A stretch of DNA of 23,194 bases. Source: a virus. Of the stretch, positions 4,292 to 23,194 are shown piece by piece; position 1 is the first letter of the stretch; each line of letters starts with the position of its first letter. The notes beneath the pieces were generated by a model, which was given only the letters and a program-made list of their open reading frames with translations, was not told the origin of the DNA and made no database searches. The stretch is from IMG/VR virus record IMGVR_UViG_3300033291_000005, positions 1 through 23,194 of that record; one strand, written 5' to 3'. The position numbers and the translations under genes were made by a program.

Positions 4292-6628
4292 TCACGCCTC
4301 CACGAGCTGGATGTACCGCTCGGTGAAGTCCACCACGATCACCGAGAAGGAGATCTCGGCGTGGCCAGGCCACACCGTGTTCCCCACGGTCACGTCGGAC
4401 AGAGTGCCGAAGAGCCGGCGCCCGGTGTAATCCCGGTAGCACACCACCTCGGAATCGGTGCCCGCCGCGTCCCACAGCTGGGGCGCGGAGTCGTAGGCGC
4501 ACAGATCCGTGCTGGCGGCGCAGCGTGGATCGAAATACAGCGTCCCGCTGACCGCAAGAGAGCTGCTCGTGGCCTGGCCCACGAGGGCCACCGGCTTGGC
4601 CCGTCCGAGGAAGTGCTGCTGTGCCTTCAGCCGCCCCGAGGTCCTGGAGATCTGCGGATCTCCGTGGAACCGGAGGTCGTGCTCGAAGGAGTCCCCGTAG
4701 CTGACCCAGACCCACAGCGGGCTGCCGTCGGCCACGCCGTCGGTCCCCTCGACCTCGAGGATCGGGCCCACGGCCTGGCTGGGTGTCGCGCTGAGCGCAG
4801 TGATCCGGTACTGGTTCGTCCCGTTCGTCGCCGGCAGGGTGTCGAGAAAGTCGGTCGGGATGAGCAGGCCCGCGGCCAGCGTGACCCAGTCCTCGCCGGG
4901 CGCCATGCGCTCCAAGGTCACCGACTCGACGGCCACGGTGACACCCTCCTCCGCAGCCTCGGGCTCGAAGTGGAGCAGCACGGTGCCCTGGCACTCCTGG
5001 TAGGACCCAGTGACCTGGACCGCGGCCGGTGGCAGGAGATCGAAGCTGGTGGTGACCTCGTCGTACTCCGACCAGATCTCGGCCGAGGACTGGACCAGCA
5101 CCCGCACGATGTAGTCGTTGCCGGTCACCGTGGCGTAGGTGAACGCCACCGTGGTCCCGGCGCCGAACCCGTCGATCTCCTCGAGCAGGGTCACGCCGTC
5201 GTCCGCGTACAGCAGCGCGACGTAGGCCAGCTGGGGCAGCAGCTCCGCCTGGCTGTAGACCCAGGTAGCCACGATCGGGATCGTGTCGGTGGTCGCCTCG
5301 GGCAGGGTCAGAGTCAGCGATGGCTTGGTCGAGCCGGTCACCGCGGCCGAGGCGCTGAAATCGCTGTAGCCGGCCGAGACCAGCCCCTCGGTCTGGACCT
5401 TCCACAGGTAGGGCACCCCGTTCGCCAGGGTCCCCGCAGGCAGCGTGAACGAGCTGACGGCCGAGGCGACGTCGGTGGCCGTCCCGAGGGCGTACCAGTT
5501 GCTGCCCGCGTCGTCGCTGTACTCGATCGTGAAGTGGGTCTGGGCGACGCCGGTGCCGCCCGGGTTGTGCTGCCAGGTGAAATCGACGTCGTCATTGACG
5601 AAGTCGACGTAGGTCCCGTCCGGATCGAGCAACGTCGGCGCCTGAGGCTCAGCCGGGGCGCTGACGGTATTTCCCGTGGCGTAGGCCGACTGCAGCGGAC
5701 CCGTCACCACCGCGGCAATGCGGTACTGATTCGTCCCGCCGCCGGGACTGTTGTCGACATAGGAGGTCGTGTCCTGGTCCGCCACCGTGTCCAGGTCGGC
5801 GAATGCCCCGCCGGCCACAGAGCGCTGAATCTTCCAGCTGCCAGCGCCTGGGTAATTGTAGGCGTTGTCGGTCCACGTCGTCGTGATTGCCGTGCCCGCG
5901 GTGTTGAGCACCGAGGCGACATTCGACGGTGCCGCCGGCGTCATGAAGACGACATTGCTGTCGTTCCATTCCGAAACGCCGTGGGAGTTCACGGCCCGCG
6001 GGGACAGCTGATAGGCGTGGTTGGCGGACAATCCGCCCTTGACGTAACTCCCGGTGGCTCCTGAAACGGTAGCTACCACGTTCCAGCTGGCCTCGGTCCA
6101 GACGGTGGAACCATTCCACCGTCGCATCGAGACCTGCTGATAGGAGTACGGCTCCGGAACCGTGGGGTTCGGGGTCCAGGTCAGCGTGACCTGACTATCG
6201 CTGTTGCGTACCAGCAGCGAGTCGGTGCAGGCCGCCGGCCCGCTCGTCGGCCGCGCCGGAATCGGGTAGGACACCGTGACGGTCGGCGTGATGCCGTTGA
6301 AGGCACCACTGATCGTCGCAGTGAACGTCTGATTCCCCGGACTGTAGCCATATTCCCCGGCGCCGTAGGTGTAGTCGTGCGTCTTGAATTCACGCTGAAC
6401 AATCTGGCTACCCTCGCCATTGGTGAAGGCGAATGAGCCGGCGATGTCATCGGTGTAATCCAGACTCTGGGCATCGGAGGGATAGGTGTACTGGTTCTGC
6501 GTGTAGACCCTGATCTCGAAGGTCGCCACGGTCGAGGAATGAGCCGGCGCGAGCGGGACGGACACGTCCAGCCCGACGCGCATCCCGTTACCGCCGGAGA
6601 ACTGCCAGCTGCCCCACTGGATCGTCAT
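4292..6628 (-). CDS. minor tail protein with several fibronectin type III-like domains
   Basis: A 778-residue tail protein encoded directly after the tape measure gene, where the distal tail/minor tail protein normally lies. Residues about 115-520 contain four tandem fibronectin III-like domains, recognisable by strands such as QVTLTWTPNP, AITTTWTDN, DVDFTWQHNP and the Tyr motifs NHAYQLSPRAV, TNQYRIAAV and PYLWKVQ. A further domain with TNQYRITALS lies near 540-610. The last 140 residues carry a conserved actinophage minor-tail block: GRAKPVALVG, EVVCYRDYTGRRLFGTL and ISFSVIVVDFTE. Fibronectin III and Ig-like domains on phage virions are thought to give weak binding to cell-surface sugars. 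The ATG overlaps the tape measure stop by one base, so the two are probably made from one message. Confidence 0.85.
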   Translation of the reverse strand: MTIQWGSWQFSGGNGMRVGLDVSVPLAPAHSSTVATFEIRVYTQNQYTYPSDAQSLDYTDDIAGSFAFTNGEGSQIVQREFKTHDYTYGAGEYGYSPGNQTFTATISGAFNGITPTVTVSYPIPARPTSGPAACTDSLLVRNSDSQVTLTWTPNPTVPEPYSYQQVSMRRWNGSTVWTEASWNVVATVSGATGSYVKGGLSANHAYQLSPRAVNSHGVSEWNDSNVVFMTPAAPSNVASVLNTAGTAITTTWTDNAYNYPGAGSWKIQRSVAGGAFADLDTVADQDTTSYVDNSPGGGTNQYRIAAVVTGPLQSAYATGNTVSAPAEPQAPTLLDPDGTYVDFVNDDVDFTWQHNPGGTGVAQTHFTIEYSDDAGSNWYALGTATDVASAVSSFTLPAGTLANGVPYLWKVQTEGLVSAGYSDFSASAAVTGSTKPSLTLTLPEATTDTIPIVATWVYSQAELLPQLAYVALLYADDGVTLLEEIDGFGAGTTVAFTYATVTGNDYIVRVLVQSSAEIWSEYDEVTTSFDLLPPAAVQVTGSYQECQGTVLLHFEPEAAEEGVTVAVESVTLERMAPGEDWVTLAAGLLIPTDFLDTLPATNGTNQYRITALSATPSQAVGPILEVEGTDGVADGSPLWVWVSYGDSFEHDLRFHGDPQISRTSGRLKAQQHFLGRAKPVALVGQATSSSLAVSGTLYFDPRCAASTDLCAYDSAPQLWDAAGTDSEVVCYRDYTGRRLFGTLSDVTVGNTVWPGHAEISFSVIVVDFTERYIQLVEA

Positions 6629-9600
6629 CAGACCGACACCTTCCCACTACGCTGCGTCTTCCTCGTGGTGGACCGCGCCTCCTCGAGCATCTTCAGGAAG
6701 TCATCCAGGGTACGCAGCTTCGACAGATCATCGATCGATAGCTTGATCGACACGTCGTACTGATCCCCCATTCCGGCACGGACCAAGGCCTCCGGGGCTC
6801 CGGTGTTGTTCTGCACGAGGGATGGCCCCTTCGGCAACACGCCGCCGTTGTCCATCAACAGCGCGCGCCGCAGCACGCCGCCCTGCGCGAAGGTCGCCCC
6901 GAGGCTGGTGAAGCCGGAAACCGACTGACCGATGATCTTCGTGACGTCGCCGGTGTGCGGCGCCTCGGCCCACTGGCCAGACCCCATGTAGAGCTCTACG
7001 TGCTCCGCCGGCCGGCCGACGAACCCGAGGTCTCCTGGCTTGATCGCACTCGCGGCCACGGCCCGGGCGAACGCTTGCTGCTGCTGGGAGGTGCGCGGGA
7101 TCGAGATGCCGGCCGCGGCGTTGGCCGCCTGGGTGAAGCCCGAGCAATTGTGGACCAGGACGCCGGCAGCGAAGAACTCGTGTTCTCCCTCAACTGTCAG
7201 GTCGTAGACGTCGCTCGTTCCGCTCGGCTTTGCGACGCCGATTGTGGAAATCGTTCTTGTGCTGGTGGCAGCAGAATCGCCGCGAGCCTGCAGCGGTGTT
7301 GCGGTTTGACCCGAGGGACTGGAACTCGGCACCACATTCGGCGCAGACGTAGTCACGTAGCCGACGGGCGGCTTGACTCTCCCGCCGATGCTCGCCGATC
7401 TCGACCAGCGCAAGGTTGGCGATGTCGTTATTGTCCGTGTCATGGTCGATGTGGTGGACCTCGTGCCCAGCGGGGATTGGTCCGTTGTGGTGGCGCCAGA
7501 GGGCACGGTGAAGGCTGTCGTTGGGTCGCAGAAAGTACGCACGATGCGCTGGCCGTGGAGAGTCCGGGTAACGGAAGTATGCGTATCCGTCGAAGACGAT
7601 TCGCTCACTGCGGGACATGAAACCAGAGTATCGTATCTGGTCACATCACCGAGCCCTACCCAGCCGCGGTTGTCCGTCCACACGCGATGGTCTGCCGTCC
7701 CTCGGAGCATCTGACCGCTCACCTGGATTTCCACCGTCGGAGCGGCCCGCCTCACGAGCCAAGCACGGGTAACTGCGCGGTAGCCGCGCCGAGTCAGCAC
7801 GAGGTCCCCAACCACCACTTGCTCGATCGGGACGTCTCCGCGCAGCGTCGTGACCGGAGTCCCTTCGGCGATGCAGTCGTAGCCCGCCGGCCCCGTCCCG
7901 CCCCAGACGTACGGAATCCCGAGGTGGGCCATGACCCACGCCTTCATCTTGGCGAAGATCGGCCCACCGATGCTGTCGTAGGCCTCGTTGAAATCCGAGA
8001 ACAAGGACTTCACCTTGTCCACGGCCAGGGTCACCAGCTTCGACACCGCGGCCCCGGTGAAATCCGACAACACCCCCACAGCAGGAATCGAGGGCAACTT
8101 GGACTTGATGTAATCGAGGGGATTGCTCAGGGCCTTCCAGATCGCGCTGGAGGTGTCCCCGACCCAGCTCAGGGCCGCGGACGACTGACCCTTGATCCAG
8201 TCGACCACACCACCGAGGTCGTAGTGGTGCACCCCTCCCTCAGAGAAATTGCCGGGACCTTGCAGCAATCCGGCCTTGGCCAGCTTGTTCAGGCGCTCGA
8301 TCCCGGCCTTGCCGCCCATGGCCCGGGTGAACTCCGGACGCATGATCGCCTCGCCGCCGCTCAGCGCCAGTGCGCCGCCGGTGGGCGAGTAGAACAGATG
8401 CACGTCCCGTCCGGGCGTATAGCCAGGAGTCACGCCGCCCTGGGCGAAGGGCAGCGGGATGTTGTCGATATGGGGTCCGCCGACCTTACTGCCCAGCCAG
8501 TTGAAAGCCTTGATCAATCCATTGTTGAGAACGGTCTCGATCACGAACTTGATGGGTGCTTGGGCAATCGCCTTAAGCTTGTCCCACGCTACCTTTATTC
8601 CATCCTTGGCCTTGTCGAAGGCTTGCGCAATGAGGTCGACACCCTTCTTCAGGGCGTCGAATGCTGGGGAAATGACGGTATTCCAGCCGACCTTGATCGC
8701 ATCTGAAATGAAATCCCAAGCAGGCTTTACATATTTCTGATAAAGATCGTTGAACCAATCACCGAGGACTCCCAGTGCCTTGACAATGGCGTCCCAGATG
8801 ACCTTGATCAATGCCCAGTCAGCCTTGACAATGGCTACGGCTTTATCCCAGACGGGCTTGATGTATGAATTGTATAGCGCTGTGAACTTATCTCCGAGCC
8901 AGCTCAGCCCACTGACAATGAGATCCCAAACCGCCTTGATCAGGCCCCAAGCTATCTTGATCGCTGAAACTATAAGATCCCAAGCCGGCTTCACTGCATT
9001 GTTGTAAAGCCAGGTGAAAGCATCTCCAAGCTTTCCAAGAGCCAGTTTAGCCGCCTCGAAAGTCGGCATAACGACAAGCTTCCACCAGGCGAGAATGAGA
9101 ATCTCGATCGCCTTGAAGACGAATTCCACGATCTTCTCTAAGGTCTGGAACCAGGGGCCGAAAGTGTCGTTGATCCATGATCCGACCGCGGTGAGCGTGC
9201 CGATAATGCCGTCCCAGACAGTGGTGATCACTTCCCAGACCGCTTGAGCACCTGAGGAGATCCCGTCCCAGACCGCGGTGATCGTGTCCCACAGCACCTG
9301 GGCCGCGCCCATGACGCCGTCCCAGGCAGCGACGATCCCGGCCCAGACCGTCTGAGCAGCGCCGACGACGGCGTCCCAGGCCCCGACGATCGCTGGGACC
9401 ATGGTCCCGGTGATCCAATCCACCACGGCACCAATGGCCGTCTGGATCGCGCCCCAGACCGCCAGGACGATGTTGCGGAAGGTCTCGTTGTGCTTCCACA
9501 GCAGCACGATCCCGGCGACCAGCGCGACGATCCCGGCGATGATCCACGTACCCGGCCAGGCCAGCAGCGCGCTGTTCAGTACCCACTGAATCGCAGCCCA

Positions 9601-10752
9601 GACCTTCGTAGCCGTGGTAACGAGGTTCATCTGGGTGAGGTACTTGATCAGGCCACCGGCCGCCTGCACCGCCAGGTAGGAGGCGTGAGCCTGGGTGATG
9701 GCCAGCAGGGTCCCCATGCTGACGGCCAGAGCCTCAGCGAGCGCCTGGTGCTGCCTCAGGTAGTCGAGGGTCTTGACCCCGGCGTCCCACAGCGCGAGAA
9801 GGGCCTTGCCCAGCAGCTCCAGCACGGAGCGCAGCGCCCCACCGGCCCCCTCGCCCTTGGAGAACTGATCGGCCAGCTCGCGGACCACTCCGACGGCCTG
9901 GCCGAGCTTCTCGCCCAGTACCTCGCCGACCTTCGTCGCCACCGGCTCCAGGCCGTCCAGCGCACCGATCGCGTCCCCGAACAGTGCCGGCAGCTGGGAG
10001 AACACTCCGCCCAGAAGCTTGGCCCCAAGGCGGCCGAGGGCAGCGCCGACATTCTTCAGCGCGCCGGTGAAGGTCTTACCGGAAGCCAGGGCCGCGCCGC
10101 CGAGACCTTTCTCCATGGCCGTCTGGAATTGTGCGAAACTGACCTTCCCTTGGGATACCAACTTGAATGTCTCATCGTTGGACAGCCCAAGACTCTTGGC
10201 CAGGAGCTGCAACGCAGGCACGCCGCGGTCCTGGAGCTGCTGCAACGCCCCGTTGGTGGCCTTCCCGCCAGCCGCCATCGAGGAGAAGATCCCACCGACG
10301 TCACTCAGGCTGGTCCCGGCGATCGTCGTCGTGTCGGCCAGCAGCTTGAGCGTGCGGGTCAGCTCCTGGCCCGGCTTGATCCCGGCTCCGACCAGGATCG
10401 CGGCCTGGCTGGCCGCGTCACCCAGTCCGAACGCCGTGCCCTTCACCGATGTCAGGGCATTGTTCATGATCGAAGTGACCTGCTGGGCCGAGTAGCCCAG
10501 GCCGACCAGCTTGCCCTTGGCATCATCGATCGCCGTCAGCCGGGAGAAGCCCTTGACCAGCGCGGTGCCGATGACTCCGGCCACGAGGCCGCCGGCGATC
10601 TTGGCCCCGGTCGCCATCCCCTTGCCGACCGCGCCGGCGATGTTCAGCCCCGACTTCTGGGCTGCGGGCTTGGTCTTCTGCTCCAGCTCCTTGACGAAGA
10701 GCTGACCGTCCGCGCCGACGACGATGACTGCTTCGCCAATGATGGTGGACAT
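6628..10752 (-). CDS. tape measure protein with C-terminal NlpC/P60 hydrolase domain interrupted by an intein
   Basis: The 1374-residue precursor is the largest gene in the window and follows the two tail assembly chaperones, as tape measure genes do. It sets tail length and probably exits with the DNA. It has an Ala/Gly-rich N-terminus with typical lines (LVGLGYSAQQV, LKLLADTTTIAG), hydrophobic segments near 395-455, four 18-residue Trp repeats (458-529) and three 44-residue helical repeats (575-706). The C-terminus is an NlpC/P60 cell-wall peptidase split by an intein at 960-1202: GIPYVWGG..GYD before, CSGFTQ after. The catalytic triad would be Cys1203, His1251 (AEHVELYMG) and His1266 in precursor numbering. 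The spliced product would have 1131 residues. GGGAG seven bases before the ATG is the ribosome binding site and lies in a hairpin. A tail-borne hydrolase would open peptidoglycan during DNA entry. Confidence 0.95.
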   Translation of the reverse strand: MSTIIGEAVIVVGADGQLFVKELEQKTKPAAQKSGLNIAGAVGKGMATGAKIAGGLVAGVIGTALVKGFSRLTAIDDAKGKLVGLGYSAQQVTSIMNNALTSVKGTAFGLGDAASQAAILVGAGIKPGQELTRTLKLLADTTTIAGTSLSDVGGIFSSMAAGGKATNGALQQLQDRGVPALQLLAKSLGLSNDETFKLVSQGKVSFAQFQTAMEKGLGGAALASGKTFTGALKNVGAALGRLGAKLLGGVFSQLPALFGDAIGALDGLEPVATKVGEVLGEKLGQAVGVVRELADQFSKGEGAGGALRSVLELLGKALLALWDAGVKTLDYLRQHQALAEALAVSMGTLLAITQAHASYLAVQAAGGLIKYLTQMNLVTTATKVWAAIQWVLNSALLAWPGTWIIAGIVALVAGIVLLWKHNETFRNIVLAVWGAIQTAIGAVVDWITGTMVPAIVGAWDAVVGAAQTVWAGIVAAWDGVMGAAQVLWDTITAVWDGISSGAQAVWEVITTVWDGIIGTLTAVGSWINDTFGPWFQTLEKIVEFVFKAIEILILAWWKLVVMPTFEAAKLALGKLGDAFTWLYNNAVKPAWDLIVSAIKIAWGLIKAVWDLIVSGLSWLGDKFTALYNSYIKPVWDKAVAIVKADWALIKVIWDAIVKALGVLGDWFNDLYQKYVKPAWDFISDAIKVGWNTVISPAFDALKKGVDLIAQAFDKAKDGIKVAWDKLKAIAQAPIKFVIETVLNNGLIKAFNWLGSKVGGPHIDNIPLPFAQGGVTPGYTPGRDVHLFYSPTGGALALSGGEAIMRPEFTRAMGGKAGIERLNKLAKAGLLQGPGNFSEGGVHHYDLGGVVDWIKGQSSAALSWVGDTSSAIWKALSNPLDYIKSKLPSIPAVGVLSDFTGAAVSKLVTLAVDKVKSLFSDFNEAYDSIGGPIFAKMKAWVMAHLGIPYVWGGTGPAGYDCIAEGTPVTTLRGDVPIEQVVVGDLVLTRRGYRAVTRAWLVRRAAPTVEIQVSGQMLRGTADHRVWTDNRGWVGLGDVTRYDTLVSCPAVSESSSTDTHTSVTRTLHGQRIVRTFCDPTTAFTVPSGATTTDQSPLGTRSTTSTMTRTITTSPTLRWSRSASIGGRVKPPVGYVTTSAPNVVPSSSPSGQTATPLQARGDSAATSTRTISTIGVAKPSGTSDVYDLTVEGEHEFFAAGVLVHNCSGFTQAANAAAGISIPRTSQQQQAFARAVAASAIKPGDLGFVGRPAEHVELYMGSGQWAEAPHTGDVTKIIGQSVSGFTSLGATFAQGGVLRRALLMDNGGVLPKGPSLVQNNTGAPEALVRAGMGDQYDVSIKLSIDDLSKLRTLDDFLKMLEEARSTTRKTQRSGKVSV
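7190..7618 (-). CDS. HNH homing endonuclease nested out of frame inside the intein
   Basis: A complete 142-residue HNH endonuclease lies wholly inside the intein coding sequence, on the same strand but one base back (-1) from the tape measure frame. It has an N-terminal GYAYFRYP..R.YFL region, LHRALWRHHNGPIP, and the HNH core: His55-His56 in HEVHHIDHD, Asn64 and Asn68 in DNNDIANLALV, His77 in GEHRRES. A zinc-ribbon-like end follows (CAECG near 92-96, FCCHQH near 115-120). By hand count about 70% of its codons end in G or C, as expected of a real gene here. The frame is closed by a TGA nine codons above the ATG. The ATG (7618) overlaps the TCA codon for intein Ser86. No Shine-Dalgarno sequence precedes it, but TACTCT lies six bases upstream. 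It should cut intein-free tape measure alleles to spread the element; that role is inferred from the family and the location. Confidence 0.87.
   Translation of the reverse strand: MSRSERIVFDGYAYFRYPDSPRPAHRAYFLRPNDSLHRALWRHHNGPIPAGHEVHHIDHDTDNNDIANLALVEIGEHRRESQAARRLRDYVCAECGAEFQSLGSNRNTAAGSRRFCCHQHKNDFHNRRRKAERNERRLRPDS
7625..7630 (-). promoter_or_regulatory. possible -10 element (TACTCT) six bases before the HNH start
   Basis: TACTCT fits the actinobacterial -10 pattern TAnnnT and ends six bases before the HNH ATG, which would make a leaderless message. No -35 element is evident 17-18 bases upstream. The same geometry appears before the lipoprotein and chaperone genes. This is inference from position only. 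Confidence 0.25.
8635..9030 (-). repeat. three tandem 44-residue repeats in the tape measure protein
   Basis: Residues 575-618, 619-662 and 663-706 align without gaps. Each begins LGDxF..LYN or LYQ, continues with KPxWD at position 14-18 of the repeat, and then has spaced Ile/Trp residues (AIKxxW, IKxxWD). They are amphipathic and probably form long helices along the tail tube, so copy number would affect tail length. This stretch is distinctly AT-richer than its surroundings: the six lines from 8701 and 8821-9120 range from about 35 to 52% GC by hand count, against about 70% near 9300. Confidence 0.8.
9166..9381 (-). repeat. four 18-residue Trp repeats in the tape measure protein
   Basis: Starting at residue 458 the protein repeats AWDAVVGAAQTVWAGIVA, AWDGVMGAAQVLWDTITA, VWDGISSGAQAVWEVITT and a weaker VWDGIIGTLTAVGSWIND. 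Eighteen residues equal five helical turns, so Trp and Asp recur on one face. The pattern is characteristic of tape measure proteins that pack as helices in the tail tube. Confidence 0.75.
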
Positions 10753-17764: not shown

Positions 17765-18700
17765 TCAGGTGTAGATGAACCCGTCCACCAGCGTCGCGTT
17801 CCCTCCGGCCTTGACCACGGTCACATCCACCGTGCCGGTGCCGGCCGGCGAGGTGACGCTGATCTGGGTGTCAGAGTCGACCGAGAAGCTGGTGCCCGGC
17901 GTCGCGCCGAAGTTCACCGCGGTCGCACCGGTGAACCCGGCACCTGTGATCACGGTCGCGGTCCCGCCGGCCTCCACGCCGGTACCGGGCACCACGGTCG
18001 CGATGTACGGCGGCATCGGCAGCGGGTCGCAGTCCGAGGCCGGCGGTGCGAGCGTGGTCTTGATCAGGAGCAGGTGATCCAGCGCGTCCAGCGCGGTGGG
18101 CAGCGGCGCGGGGTCGCCGCCGTCGTCCTCCAGCACGTTGTACGGACCGGTGCCCCATTGATTGCCGCCCTTGGTGTAGGCGCCCGTCAGCGAGAAGGAG
18201 ACCGCGTTCTCCCCGTCGACCGTGAGGTCTCCCAGGACTCCGGCCTGGACGAAGGGCAGCACGCTGTACCCGCCGGAGAAAGCCGCGCCGGTCGGGCACG
18301 CCTCGCCGCTCAGGCCGGTCCACAGCTCGAAGGCGAAAGCCTTCTCGATGGTTCCCTCGGCGACCACGAAGCCGATCAGCTCGTCGACCGTGTAGCCCTC
18401 GTAGGTCTCCGCGTTGGTCATCATCGCCAGCAGCGCGGGATTCACGCCGCAGAAGGTGATCTCAACGTTGAAGCGCTTGAAACTCGGGGAGAGCTTCTCG
18501 CTCACGCAGAGGCTGCCATCCGCCTTCTTCGTGATGATCTCTGCGCCGTCCTCGACCTGACTCGAGAGAGTCAGAGTGATGAATCCGTCCGTCGCGACCA
18601 CCGAATCGGCGGTGCCTGCGGCGGGCAGATTCCCACAGCTGTCGAGATTGGTGACCCGGATCCGCTTGCCCAGGATCGGGATGAAGCACTCGTTGGCCAT
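17765..18700 (-). CDS. probable major tail tube protein with C-terminal TIG (Ig-like) domain
   Basis: I place the start at the ATG at 18700 (MANECFIPILGKRIRVTNLD), which has GAGAGGA upstream; the longer frame to 18757 would begin inside the previous gene. The 311-residue product has a beta-rich N-terminal 220 residues with lines familiar from actinophage major tail proteins (FITLTLSSQVEDGAEI, KRFNVEITFCGVNPALLAMMT, YTVDELIGFVV, AFELWTGLSGEACP). Residues about 228-311 form an IPT/TIG domain (IATVVPGTGVEAGGTATVITG, FTGATAVNFG, TQISVTSPAGTGTVDVTVV). Ig-like extensions on tail tubes occur in lambda gpV and many relatives. A place before the adaptor gene is unusual for a tail tube gene, so another structural role cannot be excluded. 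Confidence 0.68.
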   Translation of the reverse strand: MANECFIPILGKRIRVTNLDSCGNLPAAGTADSVVATDGFITLTLSSQVEDGAEIITKKADGSLCVSEKLSPSFKRFNVEITFCGVNPALLAMMTNAETYEGYTVDELIGFVVAEGTIEKAFAFELWTGLSGEACPTGAAFSGGYSVLPFVQAGVLGDLTVDGENAVSFSLTGAYTKGGNQWGTGPYNVLEDDGGDPAPLPTALDALDHLLLIKTTLAPPASDCDPLPMPPYIATVVPGTGVEAGGTATVITGAGFTGATAVNFGATPGTSFSVDSDTQISVTSPAGTGTVDVTVVKAGGNATLVDGFIYT

Positions 18701-18714
18701 CGGGGGGTCCTCTC

Positions 18715-19632: not shown

Positions 19633-21834
19633 TCAGGCGGTGGTGGTGGCGTCCACCCCGGCGCCCGCGGCGACGTTCCCCACCAGGTCCCGCACCTCGT
19701 GCCGGGTGTGGTACGTGGTCGAGGCGTCCAGGCCGGTCGGGCTGTAGACGGCACTGGCCTGCCAGGCGGTCCAGGTCGGCGTGGCCGACTGGGCGTCCAG
19801 CGTGAACCGGTAGGGCAGGTCGTGCAGGCCGACGCCCGCGTCGCTGGCCCCGGTCACGGTCAGGGTGAAGCCGTCGCCGTCCTCAGCGCTGACCGCGCTG
19901 GTACCAGGCACCGGGTTGACCTGGTCGACGACCAAGGCCGTCCCATCGCAGCCGAGCTGGATCGGCGCGCCCGTGCCGCCGTTGGAGCAGATCGGCACGG
20001 TGATCACGCGGGAATCGATCCACCGCTTCGCGACGAGGTAGCCCTCCTCGGTGAACAGCGCGGTGAAGTTGTTCTGGCCCAGCAGCGCGCTGTCGTAGAT
20101 CGTGTCGAGGGTGATCACGTCGCTGGCACCCTTGACCCAGGTGCCGGCCACGTAGAGCAGGAAGTCCACCGTCGACGGCCACTCGGTGAAGTTCGCCGCC
20201 GTGCCGGTGAGCGGCTGCCAGTCGTAGACGAACTGGGCGGCGATCCCCCGCGAGGCAAACCACATGTTGATCTGGGCGTCCGTGATCTCGACGGACTCGA
20301 CCGGGGTCAGGCCCTGACGCAGCGCGATGTCCGTGCGGACCGCGCCGTGCACCCAGTACGGGAAGACCGCCTCGAGCACGGTGTTCCGGGCCAGCCGGTG
20401 GATGTACCGGTAGTGCTCGACCTGCTTCTCGATCGCGCTCAGCAGCGGAGCGAGAGTGCCGACGGTGCCGGTGGTCATGGTGACCGCGGTGCTGCCGGCG
20501 ACCAGCAGATTGATCAACCGCACGGACATCTTGTGGTCGTGGGCCACGAGGGCCCCACGCGTGGTCCGGCCCAGCATCTCGGGGTAGCCGCGCTGCTGCA
20601 GCAGGCCGGCGTTGAGGCACAGGCCGGCGATCGCCAGCCGCTCCTCGTCCCACGTCGGGCACGGCACGGTGTAGCAGGGCTTGTCCCCCGCGCTGCCGGA
20701 GCCAGGGTGCAGGTGGTCGGCGTCGTCGGTCACCGCGTAGGTGCCGGCCTCGTCCTGGGCCTCGGTGTAGCTCCAGTCGGTGGCCGCGTAGATCGTCGAG
20801 TAGTCGATCCCGGTCGTCCACTGGATGCCGCCGCGGGCGATCCCGATCTCCGGCATGGAGAAGAGGCCGTCACGGCTCTCCAGCTCCAGGAAGTCGTAGA
20901 GGATCTCCGAGGGGGCGCACCAGCCACCGGCCGCGACGAGGGAGCCGCCCTGCAGCCGGGACTGGTCGACCGCCCGGGCGAAGACCTCCTCGACGTGATC
21001 AGGATCGCTGCTCTGGATCATCAGATCCTGCGGGATCGGCCGCTGGAAGACCGCGACCGAGTGCTGGGCGGCCAGGTGCTGACCGGCGCGCTGGGCGGCC
21101 CGGTACTGCCCCTCGTTGAAGCCGGCCAGCCGGCGGTCCACGATCCGGCCGATGTCCCGCCAGTTCACACCGGCTCCAGCCGCGTACCCGGTGCCGTCAC
21201 CGGAGGCGAACACCAGGTCCTGCATCCGCGTCGGCGCGCTTCCCTGGCGCGGCATCACCGGACGCTGCGAGCGCACCGAGGACAGGTTCACCCGCACCTC
21301 GCGCCGCGGAGCGGGCGCGCCGGCCACGACGGCCGCGGGAGCCTGACCCTCAGGCGCTCCCTCGCCACCGCCACCACCATCGCCCTCGCCGGACTCGTCC
21401 TCGTCGTCCCCACCGTCGCCGCCCTGGTCGTCGTCTCCCGCGGCGTCGTCCTCGCGGTCGTTGATCTCCTCGGTACGGGTCTCGGTGTGCACCCGCGTGG
21501 CCAGCTCCGCGGCGGCGGCGGCGCGCTGGTCGGCGGCCTCCCGGCGCGTGGACAGCTCGCCCTGCAGCCCCTCGATCCCTTCGGTGAGCACCGAGAGAGC
21601 GGCCATGGCCTCCTCGGTCAGCCCCTCGCCGCCGTTGTACAGCGTGTCGAAGTGGCCGATCGCCTCGCTGTGCAGGGAAGCCAGCTGCTCGTCCGTGAGC
21701 GTGCTGAGATCCTCCGGGATCACGAAGTCGTCGGCGCCGGGCGCGTTCCCGCCGCTGCCGCCGCTGTCGGACTGCCGCTCGTAGTCGGTGAAGAAGGTGG
21801 TCCGCCGGAGCGCACGCGCTCTGGACTGGCTCAT
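19633..21834 (-). CDS. major capsid protein with N-terminal scaffold region and C-terminal Ig-like domain
   Basis: At 733 residues this is much longer than a plain HK97-fold capsid protein. Residues about 35-125 are helical and charged (LTDEQLASLHSEAIGHF, EGIEGLQGELSTRREAADQR), like the scaffolding delta domain of fused capsid genes. Residues 126-163 are an acidic Gly/Asp/Glu run. The capsid body starts near 178 (RREVRVNLSSVRSQRP) and has expected features such as AGGWCAPSEILYDFLELE, the E-loop/P-domain segments and VDFLLYVAGTWVKG. The capsid protease encoded three genes upstream would remove the scaffold. About 640-733 form an Ig/FN3-like domain (GDGFTLTVTG, PYRFTLDAQSATPTWTAW, TYHTRHEVRDLVGN), which would decorate the shell. 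AGGAGG sits four bases before the ATG. Confidence 0.85.
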   Translation of the reverse strand: MSQSRARALRRTTFFTDYERQSDSGGSGGNAPGADDFVIPEDLSTLTDEQLASLHSEAIGHFDTLYNGGEGLTEEAMAALSVLTEGIEGLQGELSTRREAADQRAAAAAELATRVHTETRTEEINDREDDAAGDDDQGGDGGDDEDESGEGDGGGGGEGAPEGQAPAAVVAGAPAPRREVRVNLSSVRSQRPVMPRQGSAPTRMQDLVFASGDGTGYAAGAGVNWRDIGRIVDRRLAGFNEGQYRAAQRAGQHLAAQHSVAVFQRPIPQDLMIQSSDPDHVEEVFARAVDQSRLQGGSLVAAGGWCAPSEILYDFLELESRDGLFSMPEIGIARGGIQWTTGIDYSTIYAATDWSYTEAQDEAGTYAVTDDADHLHPGSGSAGDKPCYTVPCPTWDEERLAIAGLCLNAGLLQQRGYPEMLGRTTRGALVAHDHKMSVRLINLLVAGSTAVTMTTGTVGTLAPLLSAIEKQVEHYRYIHRLARNTVLEAVFPYWVHGAVRTDIALRQGLTPVESVEITDAQINMWFASRGIAAQFVYDWQPLTGTAANFTEWPSTVDFLLYVAGTWVKGASDVITLDTIYDSALLGQNNFTALFTEEGYLVAKRWIDSRVITVPICSNGGTGAPIQLGCDGTALVVDQVNPVPGTSAVSAEDGDGFTLTVTGASDAGVGLHDLPYRFTLDAQSATPTWTAWQASAVYSPTGLDASTTYHTRHEVRDLVGNVAAGAGVDATTTA

Positions 21835-21908: not shown

Positions 21909-22025
21909 TCAGAAGGCAGAGTTGAACCGAGCCGACGCGGCCTCGGGATCGATCTCCTTGCCCTCGCGCTCGACCCGCTTCAGGGCGGCCGCGAGATGAG
22001 GGTTGACGTTCTCCCTGTCAGCCAT
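21909..22025 (-). CDS. small protein of unknown function (38 aa)
   Basis: A 38-codon frame (MADRENVNPHLAAALKRVEREG...) lies between the CxC protein and the capsid gene. Its ATG overlaps the end of the upstream gene by eight bases, with AGAGG just before it. The product is charged and probably one or two helices; DPEAASARFNSAF is its end. I do not recognise a family. The interval 21835-21908 to the capsid start holds the capsid ribosome binding site and a TACTCT hexamer at 21895-21900 that may be chance. Confidence 0.55.
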   Translation of the reverse strand: MADRENVNPHLAAALKRVEREGKEIDPEAASARFNSAF

Positions 22026-22215
22026 TCCTCTCGATCCTTCCCACCCGGCCGGCGCGCACCCGCGCGGCCTCGGCCTCCAGCCGGCTGCCGTAGTTCTGCC
22101 GCGGGCCGGTCGGTGGGATGAACGCGAAGGTCTGGGTCATGGACTTGGCTTCTGCCTGCTGGTCCTGGCCCGAAGTAGACGTGGTCTTCTTGGCACCCTT
22201 CCGGCAGTTGCACAT
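22018..22215 (-). CDS. small CxC-motif protein (65 aa) of the actinophage head module
   Basis: I choose the ATG at 22215 (MCNCRKGAKKTT), which has GAGAGGGG eight bases upstream; the in-frame TTG at 22221 is a less likely start. The 65-residue product has an N-terminal Cys-x-Cys motif next to basic residues, then TFAFIPPTGPRQNYGSRLEAEAARVRAGRVG. Small proteins with a Cys-x-Cys start and a similar Tyr/Arg-rich end are common beside head genes of actinophages, but no function is known to me. The two cysteines may bind metal. Two bases separate it from the Acb2-like gene, so co-translation is likely. Confidence 0.65.
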   Translation of the reverse strand: MCNCRKGAKKTTSTSGQDQQAEAKSMTQTFAFIPPTGPRQNYGSRLEAEAARVRAGRVGRIERNG

Positions 22216-22217
22216 GC

Positions 22218-22430
22218 TCAATTCCCCTCTCGCGCGATCGCCGCGTTGGCCCAGAACATCGTCTGTTCGAGGTTGGTCAACGCCAGCGACTTCTCCCGGC
22301 TCTCCGGCAGTTCCTCGTCGATGATCTGGGCCAGCTTCTTGCAGGCCCGGCGCATCGCCTCGTGCGCTCCGACCTTCAGGCCGGTGGGCGGGTGATGATC
22401 GAACCTGCGGTTCAGCTCCTCGGGCGTCAT
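22218..22430 (-). CDS. acb2: Acb2-like cyclic-nucleotide sponge (anti-CBASS)
   Basis: The 70-residue product matches the Acb2 pattern: NRRFDHHPPT at the start, an alpha-helix with HEAMRRACKKLAQIIDEELP, then SREKSLALTNLEQTMFWANAAIARE. The ending LExxMxWANAAIAR and the early F-x-x-H-P-P-T are the strongest family marks. Acb2 proteins form hexamers that bind cyclic di- and trinucleotides made by CBASS (and some Thoeris) systems and so stop the abortive response. In characterised phages acb2 also lies near capsid genes. Here it sits three bases after the capsid protease gene and two bases before the CxC gene, so it would be made late with head proteins. The aromatic residue often present just before the HPP motif is His here, which may change ligand preference. 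Function is inferred from motifs only. Confidence 0.78.
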   Translation of the reverse strand: MTPEELNRRFDHHPPTGLKVGAHEAMRRACKKLAQIIDEELPESREKSLALTNLEQTMFWANAAIAREGN

Positions 22431-22433
22431 GAC

Positions 22434-23194
22434 TCAGTCTCTCGCGGCGTGCACCCGGACGGCCAACGCGCTCGCGCGCACCCGCCGGGCCAGCTCGGCG
22501 GCCTGGGGCAGCACTCCAGCCGCACGCTGCTGCTCCTCGCGGCGCTCGCGATCGGCCAGCCGCTTGAGGTAGCGCAAGTCGTCCACCGAGAGCGCCCCGA
22601 GGGTGCCCGGCCGGCGCACCTTGCGCGGCGGGACCATCCCTGAGGCGACCAGCGACGTGATCACTCCCGAGGCGACCAGCCCGCGCGGACGTGGCACCGG
22701 GAAACCTGGCACGTTCACCGCGAGCGCGGCCACCAGCTCGAGATTGCCGCTCAGCCGCCGCCAGTCACCGCTCAGCGGCGAGGCCCGCAGCGCGCGGACC
22801 TGGTCCGGAGTGACCGAGGGGCGCAGGGCCCCGGCCACCCAGATGCCGAAGACGTCCTCCCCCGCGGCCACGTCCGCCACCACCGCACCGGTGCGCTCGT
22901 AGTGCGCGGCGGCCGCAGCGGCGCTCAGCGTCGGGCCAGCGTGCAGGGTGTCCAGAGTGACGTGCCCGACCGCCACCTCCGCGCCCTCGGCGGTCAGCAC
23001 CGAGCCGGTGCGGAAGTGGGCGTAGCCCGTAACGCTGTGTGGCGGCGTCACGCACCCGGTGTGAGCGTGACTGATATGGCAAGTCCCCCAGATCGCCAGG
23101 TGGCCGAAGATCTGGCCCTCGGCTGTCACCCGCAGCGCAGTCGGCTCGTGCAGATCCGGGTCGGAGAACCACGAGACAGGAGGAGCGTCCGGTA
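22434..23194 (-). CDS. capsid maturation protease (N-terminus beyond the window)
   Basis: The frame stays open to the right edge, and the extra residues (PPVSWFSDPDLHEPTALRVTAEG) fit the family, so the gene is partial and the GTG at 23129 is not its start. Conserved blocks of the actinophage capsid protease follow: GQIFGHLAIWGTCHISH, CVTPPHS, GYAHFRTGSV, VAVGHVTLDTLHAG, AAHYERTGAVVADV, EDVFGIWVAGALRP, and LSGDWRRLSGNLELVAALAVNVPGFPVPR. Such proteases clear the scaffold and trim capsid protein during maturation; His and Ser residues in the HxG and SGDW regions are candidates for catalysis. The C-terminal 60 residues are basic and helical (LKRLADRERREEQQRAAG), suggesting a scaffold-binding tail. 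The three small genes and the capsid gene follow at once. Confidence 0.85.
   Translation of the reverse strand, partial: PDAPPVSWFSDPDLHEPTALRVTAEGQIFGHLAIWGTCHISHAHTGCVTPPHSVTGYAHFRTGSVLTAEGAEVAVGHVTLDTLHAGPTLSAAAAAAHYERTGAVVADVAAGEDVFGIWVAGALRPSVTPDQVRALRASPLSGDWRRLSGNLELVAALAVNVPGFPVPRPRGLVASGVITSLVASGMVPPRKVRRPGTLGALSVDDLRYLKRLADRERREEQQRAAGVLPQAAELARRVRASALAVRVHAARD

Follow-up and report, generated by a model that had tools for sequence, protein, structure and literature searches.

Acb2 proteins and related sponges

Acb2 has been described from PaMx33-type Pseudomonas phages (p26) and from phage T4 (Vs.4), both of which consist of a short N-terminal helix followed by a long helical hairpin (Acb2 description: PMC10419184). 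The protein considered here, encoded in a 23,194-nucleotide stretch of viral DNA (the window), has this architecture in its predicted model and shares the PF24729 domain with both at similar scores, but at 70 aa it is shorter than the 88-94 aa of p26 and Vs.4. In T4, vs.4 lies among the regB/vs genes, whereas the gene in the window lies in a head operon. The Y8A substitution in T4 Acb2 disrupts binding of CDNs and abolishes the activation of Panoptes by Acb2 (PMC12657218, PMC12657230), while F82C (PMC12657218) and T68M (PMC12657230) weaken binding. The action of Acb2 proteins extends to other nucleotide-based systems, and Panoptes is triggered by the presence of Acb2 (PMC12657218, PMC12657230); carrying acb2 can therefore be a cost. 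In Pseudomonas phages from which acb2 has been deleted, mutations in capsid genes help the phage to escape CBASS, which links capsid proteins to CBASS sensing (PMC10419184).

Thoeris anti-defence 1 (Tad1) has a C-terminal hairpin motif, SRENACALTHVEEALMWMN, that aligns with residues 43-63 of the window protein. Tad1 also has an N-terminal beta-sheet domain (PMC12043709), which is absent from the 70-aa, all-helical model of the window protein. Among solved structures, “Acb2 homolog 43” (PDB 9ptq), for which no publication was found, shares the F..H start, a basic residue at position 27, the P.(S/G)REKS motif, and Thr52, but differs by Thr at position 12 and by FF at 59-60, where the window protein has F-W. 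Annotated homologues or members are already on record as “cyclic nucleotide sequestering protein” genes in the actinobacteriophages Xandras, BigBubba, Serenabean, and Statler, placed in the family by tblastn or by publication; their function is likewise inferred. The HH motif recurs, as FKHHAP, in gp99 of Mycobacterium phage Bruin. In Bruin and Serenabean the gene is surrounded by DNA metabolism genes, unlike in the window.

The gene and its surroundings

The features of the window on which the comparison depends are as follows.

22218..22430, minus strand: acb2-family gene encoding 70 aa, with an ATG start and a TGA stop
22434..23194, minus strand: capsid maturation protease (portal-protease family), C-terminal part, cut by the window end (phrog_859, E 1e-69)
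22018..22215, minus strand: small CNCRKG (CxCxK-type) protein (weak matches to phrog_2069, E 0.0012, and to DUF7196, E 0.0096)
19633..21834, minus strand: major capsid protein, 733 aa (phrog_777 major head protein, E 1e-150)

The acb2 product has the sequence MTPEELNRRFDHHPPTGLKVGAHEAMRRACKKLAQIIDEELPESREKSLALTNLEQTMFWANAAIAREGN. An earlier note, made from the DNA letters, placed the gene correctly at 22218-22430 but gave no strand; the open reading frame runs on the minus strand (22430..22218), and the plus strand at 22218..22430 does not give this protein. The length of 70 residues and the C-terminal ending, LEQTMFWANAAIAR, are as that note gave them, but its N-terminal motif has to be respaced, since the sequence reads F-D-H-H-P-P-T, with one residue rather than two between F and HH.

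The order of transcription is protease, 3 nt, acb2, 2 nt, the CNCRKG gene, the major capsid gene, and then tail and lysis genes. The location among head genes was thus recognized correctly, with a capsid maturation protease upstream and the major capsid protein downstream. The protease also matches phrog_18402 head maturation protease (E 2e-57), and its counterparts in Microbacterium phages are annotated “capsid maturation protease.” A search around acb2 gave neither a sigma-70-type promoter nor a terminator, although promoters of actinophages may differ from this type. The host of the phage is likely actinobacterial, because the most similar head genes are those of Microbacterium phages and other phages of actinobacteria and the GC content of the window is 66.6%.

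Two structural genes elsewhere in the window carry additional domains. The major tail protein (17765-18703, minus strand) has a C-terminal IPT/TIG (Ig-like) domain. The tape measure protein (6628-10752, minus strand) has an intein-like insert (Hint/Intein_splicing) at residues about 960-1202, located at the apparent catalytic Cys of an NlpC/P60 domain (GYD|CIAEGTPV...VHN|CSGFTQ); the domain search gave no homing endonuclease domain for this insert.

Family membership and predicted fold

A profile search, proposed earlier as a check, gave a match to PF24729 (the Pfam Acb2/Tad1 hairpin) of 77.8 bits (E 7e-22), far above the curated cut-off of 27 bits and beside 71.4 bits for T4 Vs.4 and 66.5 bits for Pseudomonas phage p26, the two solved Acb2 proteins used as positive controls. 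All 22 of the aligned relatives match PF24729 as well. The product also matches phrog_1454 (E 1.9e-28), which PHROG annotates as “unknown function,” and has tblastn matches in 389 phage records and relatives on at least 579 viral-contig stretches. With these matches, the open reading frame is not a product of chance. PADLOC has no model for the acb2 product, as is expected of a counter-defence gene.

The closest solved sequence relative is Acb2 homolog 43, by both phmmer (E 6.7e-5) and a profile of 22 members (E 3.6e-6). Chains of Tad1 are the next solved matches to this profile, with an E of about 0.05 over residues 43-63 only (21 residues). BLASTP detected no pairwise similarity between the acb2 product and T4 Vs.4, and hhalign against a T4-type Acb2 profile gave a modest match (E 2.5e-4, probability 43). 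The Acb2-type identity suggested in the earlier note is supported by the curated profile, the architecture, 9ptq as nearest solved relative, and the retention of two aligned binding-site positions, and membership of the 70-aa protein in the Acb2 family is close to certain. Within the family it falls in a branch of 70-aa proteins of SREKSLALT type.

An AlphaFold2 single-chain model made with 22 relatives has a mean pLDDT of 89.4 and helices at 3-8, 20-40, and 45-69. These helices make up a short helix and a long helical hairpin, and the beta domain of Tad1 is absent from the prediction. For a single chain, the structure prediction that had been proposed gives the Acb2 arrangement. Comparison with solved folds does not discriminate: T4 Vs.4 (7uq2) matches with Z 5.7 and 2.8 A over 55 residues at 22% identity, but stands at rank 22 among generic helical hairpins, and Foldseek against the PDB gave nothing significant, with no Acb2 among the matches listed. 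Small helical hairpins are too generic for the fold search to be taken as proof.

The putative nucleotide pocket

Alignment by hhalign pairs H12, R27, T52, and A66 of this protein with Y8, K23, T68, and F82 of T4 Acb2. The lysine at T4 K23 and p26 K26 reportedly contacts phosphate. The K23 position is also basic here (R27) and the T68 position is also Thr (T52); among 168 unique relatives, Arg occupies position 27 in 167 and Thr occupies position 52 in 163. The positions of T4 Tyr8 and Phe82 differ, with His and Ala in the window protein, but p26 Acb2 has Ala at the Phe82 position too.

That His replaces the usual aromatic residue, as the earlier note remarked, agrees with the pairing of H12 and T4 Tyr8. 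Position 12 is Tyr in 107 of the relatives, Phe in 37, and His in 20 (Y/F 86%, H 12%). Given the Thr at this place in Acb2 homolog 43, Tyr is not a strict hallmark of Acb2. The His12 state accounts for 11 changes on a FastTree tree built from few alignment columns, at least three of them on well-supported branches. His12 is paired with His23 in 19 of the 20 relatives that have it.

Residues 12 and 23 covary across the same set (H/H 19, F/H 36, Y/Y 78, and Y/H 27 of 168). On sequence grounds, this covariation may reflect a contact or a shared pocket.

A different choice of ligand had been suggested from His12. Since His is a recurrent minority state, present in 20 of 168 relatives, an altered ligand choice is possible but is not indicated; the predicted pocket appears to be a recurrent variant, with a change of ligand as a possibility. 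If the ligand did differ, it would show one small fold retuned to different immune signals.

Proposed function and ligand

An Acb2-type cyclic-nucleotide sponge is the probable function of the protein, judged from its relatives. The small protein, for which a single chain was predicted, would most likely form a hexamer. The hexamer would sequester, without cleavage, the cyclic di- and trinucleotides made upon infection by CBASS and related defences, and with these signals sequestered CBASS and related effectors would stay off. Within this scheme, ligand binding, ligand identity, late-gene co-expression, and a protective effect for the phage are steps that we infer. The earlier note also had the phage meeting cyclic-nucleotide defences in its host, for which the survey gives little backing: a SMODS-type CD-NTase domain occurs in just two of 19 actinobacterial genomes with acb2 relatives, a count that comes from a single cyclase model and is of little use for judging the host of the window phage.

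A sponge of the same fold might instead have as its main ligand something other than a CBASS signal, such as a Thoeris signal, which is what Tad1 takes up, a type III CRISPR cyclic oligoadenylate, or some other nucleotide. There is a resemblance between the conserved SREKSLALT..LE..MWANA helix and the hairpin of Tad1, and Tad1 is the next solved profile match, if only over residues 43-63; the predicted H12/A66 pocket is unlike Y8/F82 of T4, and SMODS-type CD-NTases are few in the genomes with relatives. However, 70 aa leave no room for the N-terminal beta domain of Tad1, Acb2 homolog 43 is a far better match than Tad1 (3.6e-6 vs 0.05), and the Ala at the F82 position is shared with p26 Acb2. 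A main ligand outside CBASS is therefore considered unlikely.

Taken as an Acb2-type sponge, the protein is, on well-supported grounds, an ordinary member of the family that stands out mildly by its location and carries a recurrent His variant. With it, an uncultured phage, probably of an actinobacterium, joins the carriers of a sponge family that is widespread but mostly unannotated, and it marks the His-for-Tyr change in the predicted nucleotide pocket as recurrent.

Homologues elsewhere and the proposed timing of protection

Homologues in cultured phages adjoin ThyX, tRNA genes, a RecA-like gene, SSB/primase, HicAB, or holin, and some are near the genome end, before terminase. In the nearest viral-contig and prophage relatives, the upstream gene is often an endolysin, terminase, portal, capsid, or HNH endonuclease gene (from a neighbour scan in which the first ten genes were chosen for size). 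A place among late genes is common in the nearest branch but is not a rule. Protection timed to assembly, which the earlier note read from the late position, is unsupported as a general rule, as homologues in cultured phages are often in DNA-metabolism regions; with relatives beside DNA-metabolism, lysis, or packaging genes, such timing is only a guess. A more elaborate proposal, that in this phage lineage the sponge gene is kept behind the head protease for production in step with the capsid proteins, given their link to CBASS sensing, and that the pocket of the His12/His23 subgroup has shifted to a different cyclic nucleotide, is unlikely in our estimate.

Homologues in Paenibacillus phage Diane (L035, 3001-3204) and in other Paenibacillus phage records are labelled “phosphomannomutase,” an apparent mis-annotation.

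Presence and absence in related head operons

The head operon allows a clean comparison of phages with and without the gene. The same acb2 arrangement is kept in the nearly identical contig L002/L232. In the distant L089 the spacing is almost as in the window, with the protease stop, 2 nt, acb2, 3 nt, and a CNCGK gene, and in L007, L009, and L010 acb2 is directly behind the protease gene. Between acb2 and a CGCRK gene, both L007 and L009 have a glutaredoxin-like gene together with further genes. There is no acb2 in this slot of L233, Dulem virus 38, FuzzBuster, Hendrix, and Kozie, despite homologous head genes; the capsid protein of L233 is 54% identical to that of the window. Small genes of the CxC type are found in the equivalent place in all five and in L089, L007, and L009. 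Since five head-gene relatives lack acb2 in the slot, acb2 is accessory to head assembly and an accessory gene of the head operon.

The place beside protease and capsid genes would suggest a helper of virion assembly, such as a small helical protein of scaffold or decoration type. The head operon is tightly spaced around acb2 (3 nt and 2 nt), and the gene adjoins the same protease family in L002, L007, L009, L010, and L089. Against this, the five relatives named above have homologous head genes without it, and homologues elsewhere adjoin thymidylate synthase, tRNA, HicAB, recombinase, endolysin, and HNH genes, which makes a role in assembly very improbable.

Another possibility considered was that acb2 entered the protease slot separately in three groups of phages. 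The AU test does not reject a single clade of the window, L002, L007, L009, and L089 (p-AU 0.187, or 0.511 without L089), and neither inheritance nor re-insertion is established by this result; acb2 may have been lost from the slot or inserted there more than once.

The slot between the protease and CxC genes may be a recurrent cargo site, because a glutaredoxin/NrdH-like gene follows acb2 there in L007 (5251-5829) and occupies the same slot in L009. In L089 (4814-8604), six tRNA genes on the opposite strand are spread over about 4 kb of the head region, between the CxC and capsid genes.

Rate of protein change

In a comparison of the window with L232, the dN of acb2 is 0.038 and its dS 0.087, while seven neighbouring genes have a dN of 0.002-0.010 and a dS of 0.089-0.122; dN/dS is about 0.44 for acb2 and 0.02-0.10 for the neighbours. 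Nonsynonymous and synonymous codons number 5 and 4 in acb2 versus 27 and 191 in the neighbours (Fisher p 0.003, with nine acb2 codons only). The five replacements are at 32, 44, 51, 58, and 61, and spare positions 10, 12, 13, 27, 45-47, 52, and 60.

A passenger gene in decay, without a present function and with its dN between the window and L002 raised by relaxed constraint, would agree with a dN/dS above that of the neighbours, but both phages keep an intact frame, the replacements spare conserved positions, and dN is still below dS, so that decay is the least credible of the explanations. Positive selection was also considered; a dN/dS of about 0.44 over only nine changed codons amounts to faster change than in the neighbours, not positive selection. 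The acb2 protein changes faster than the products of its seven neighbours, which fits a counter-defence gene, while relaxed constraint would look alike.
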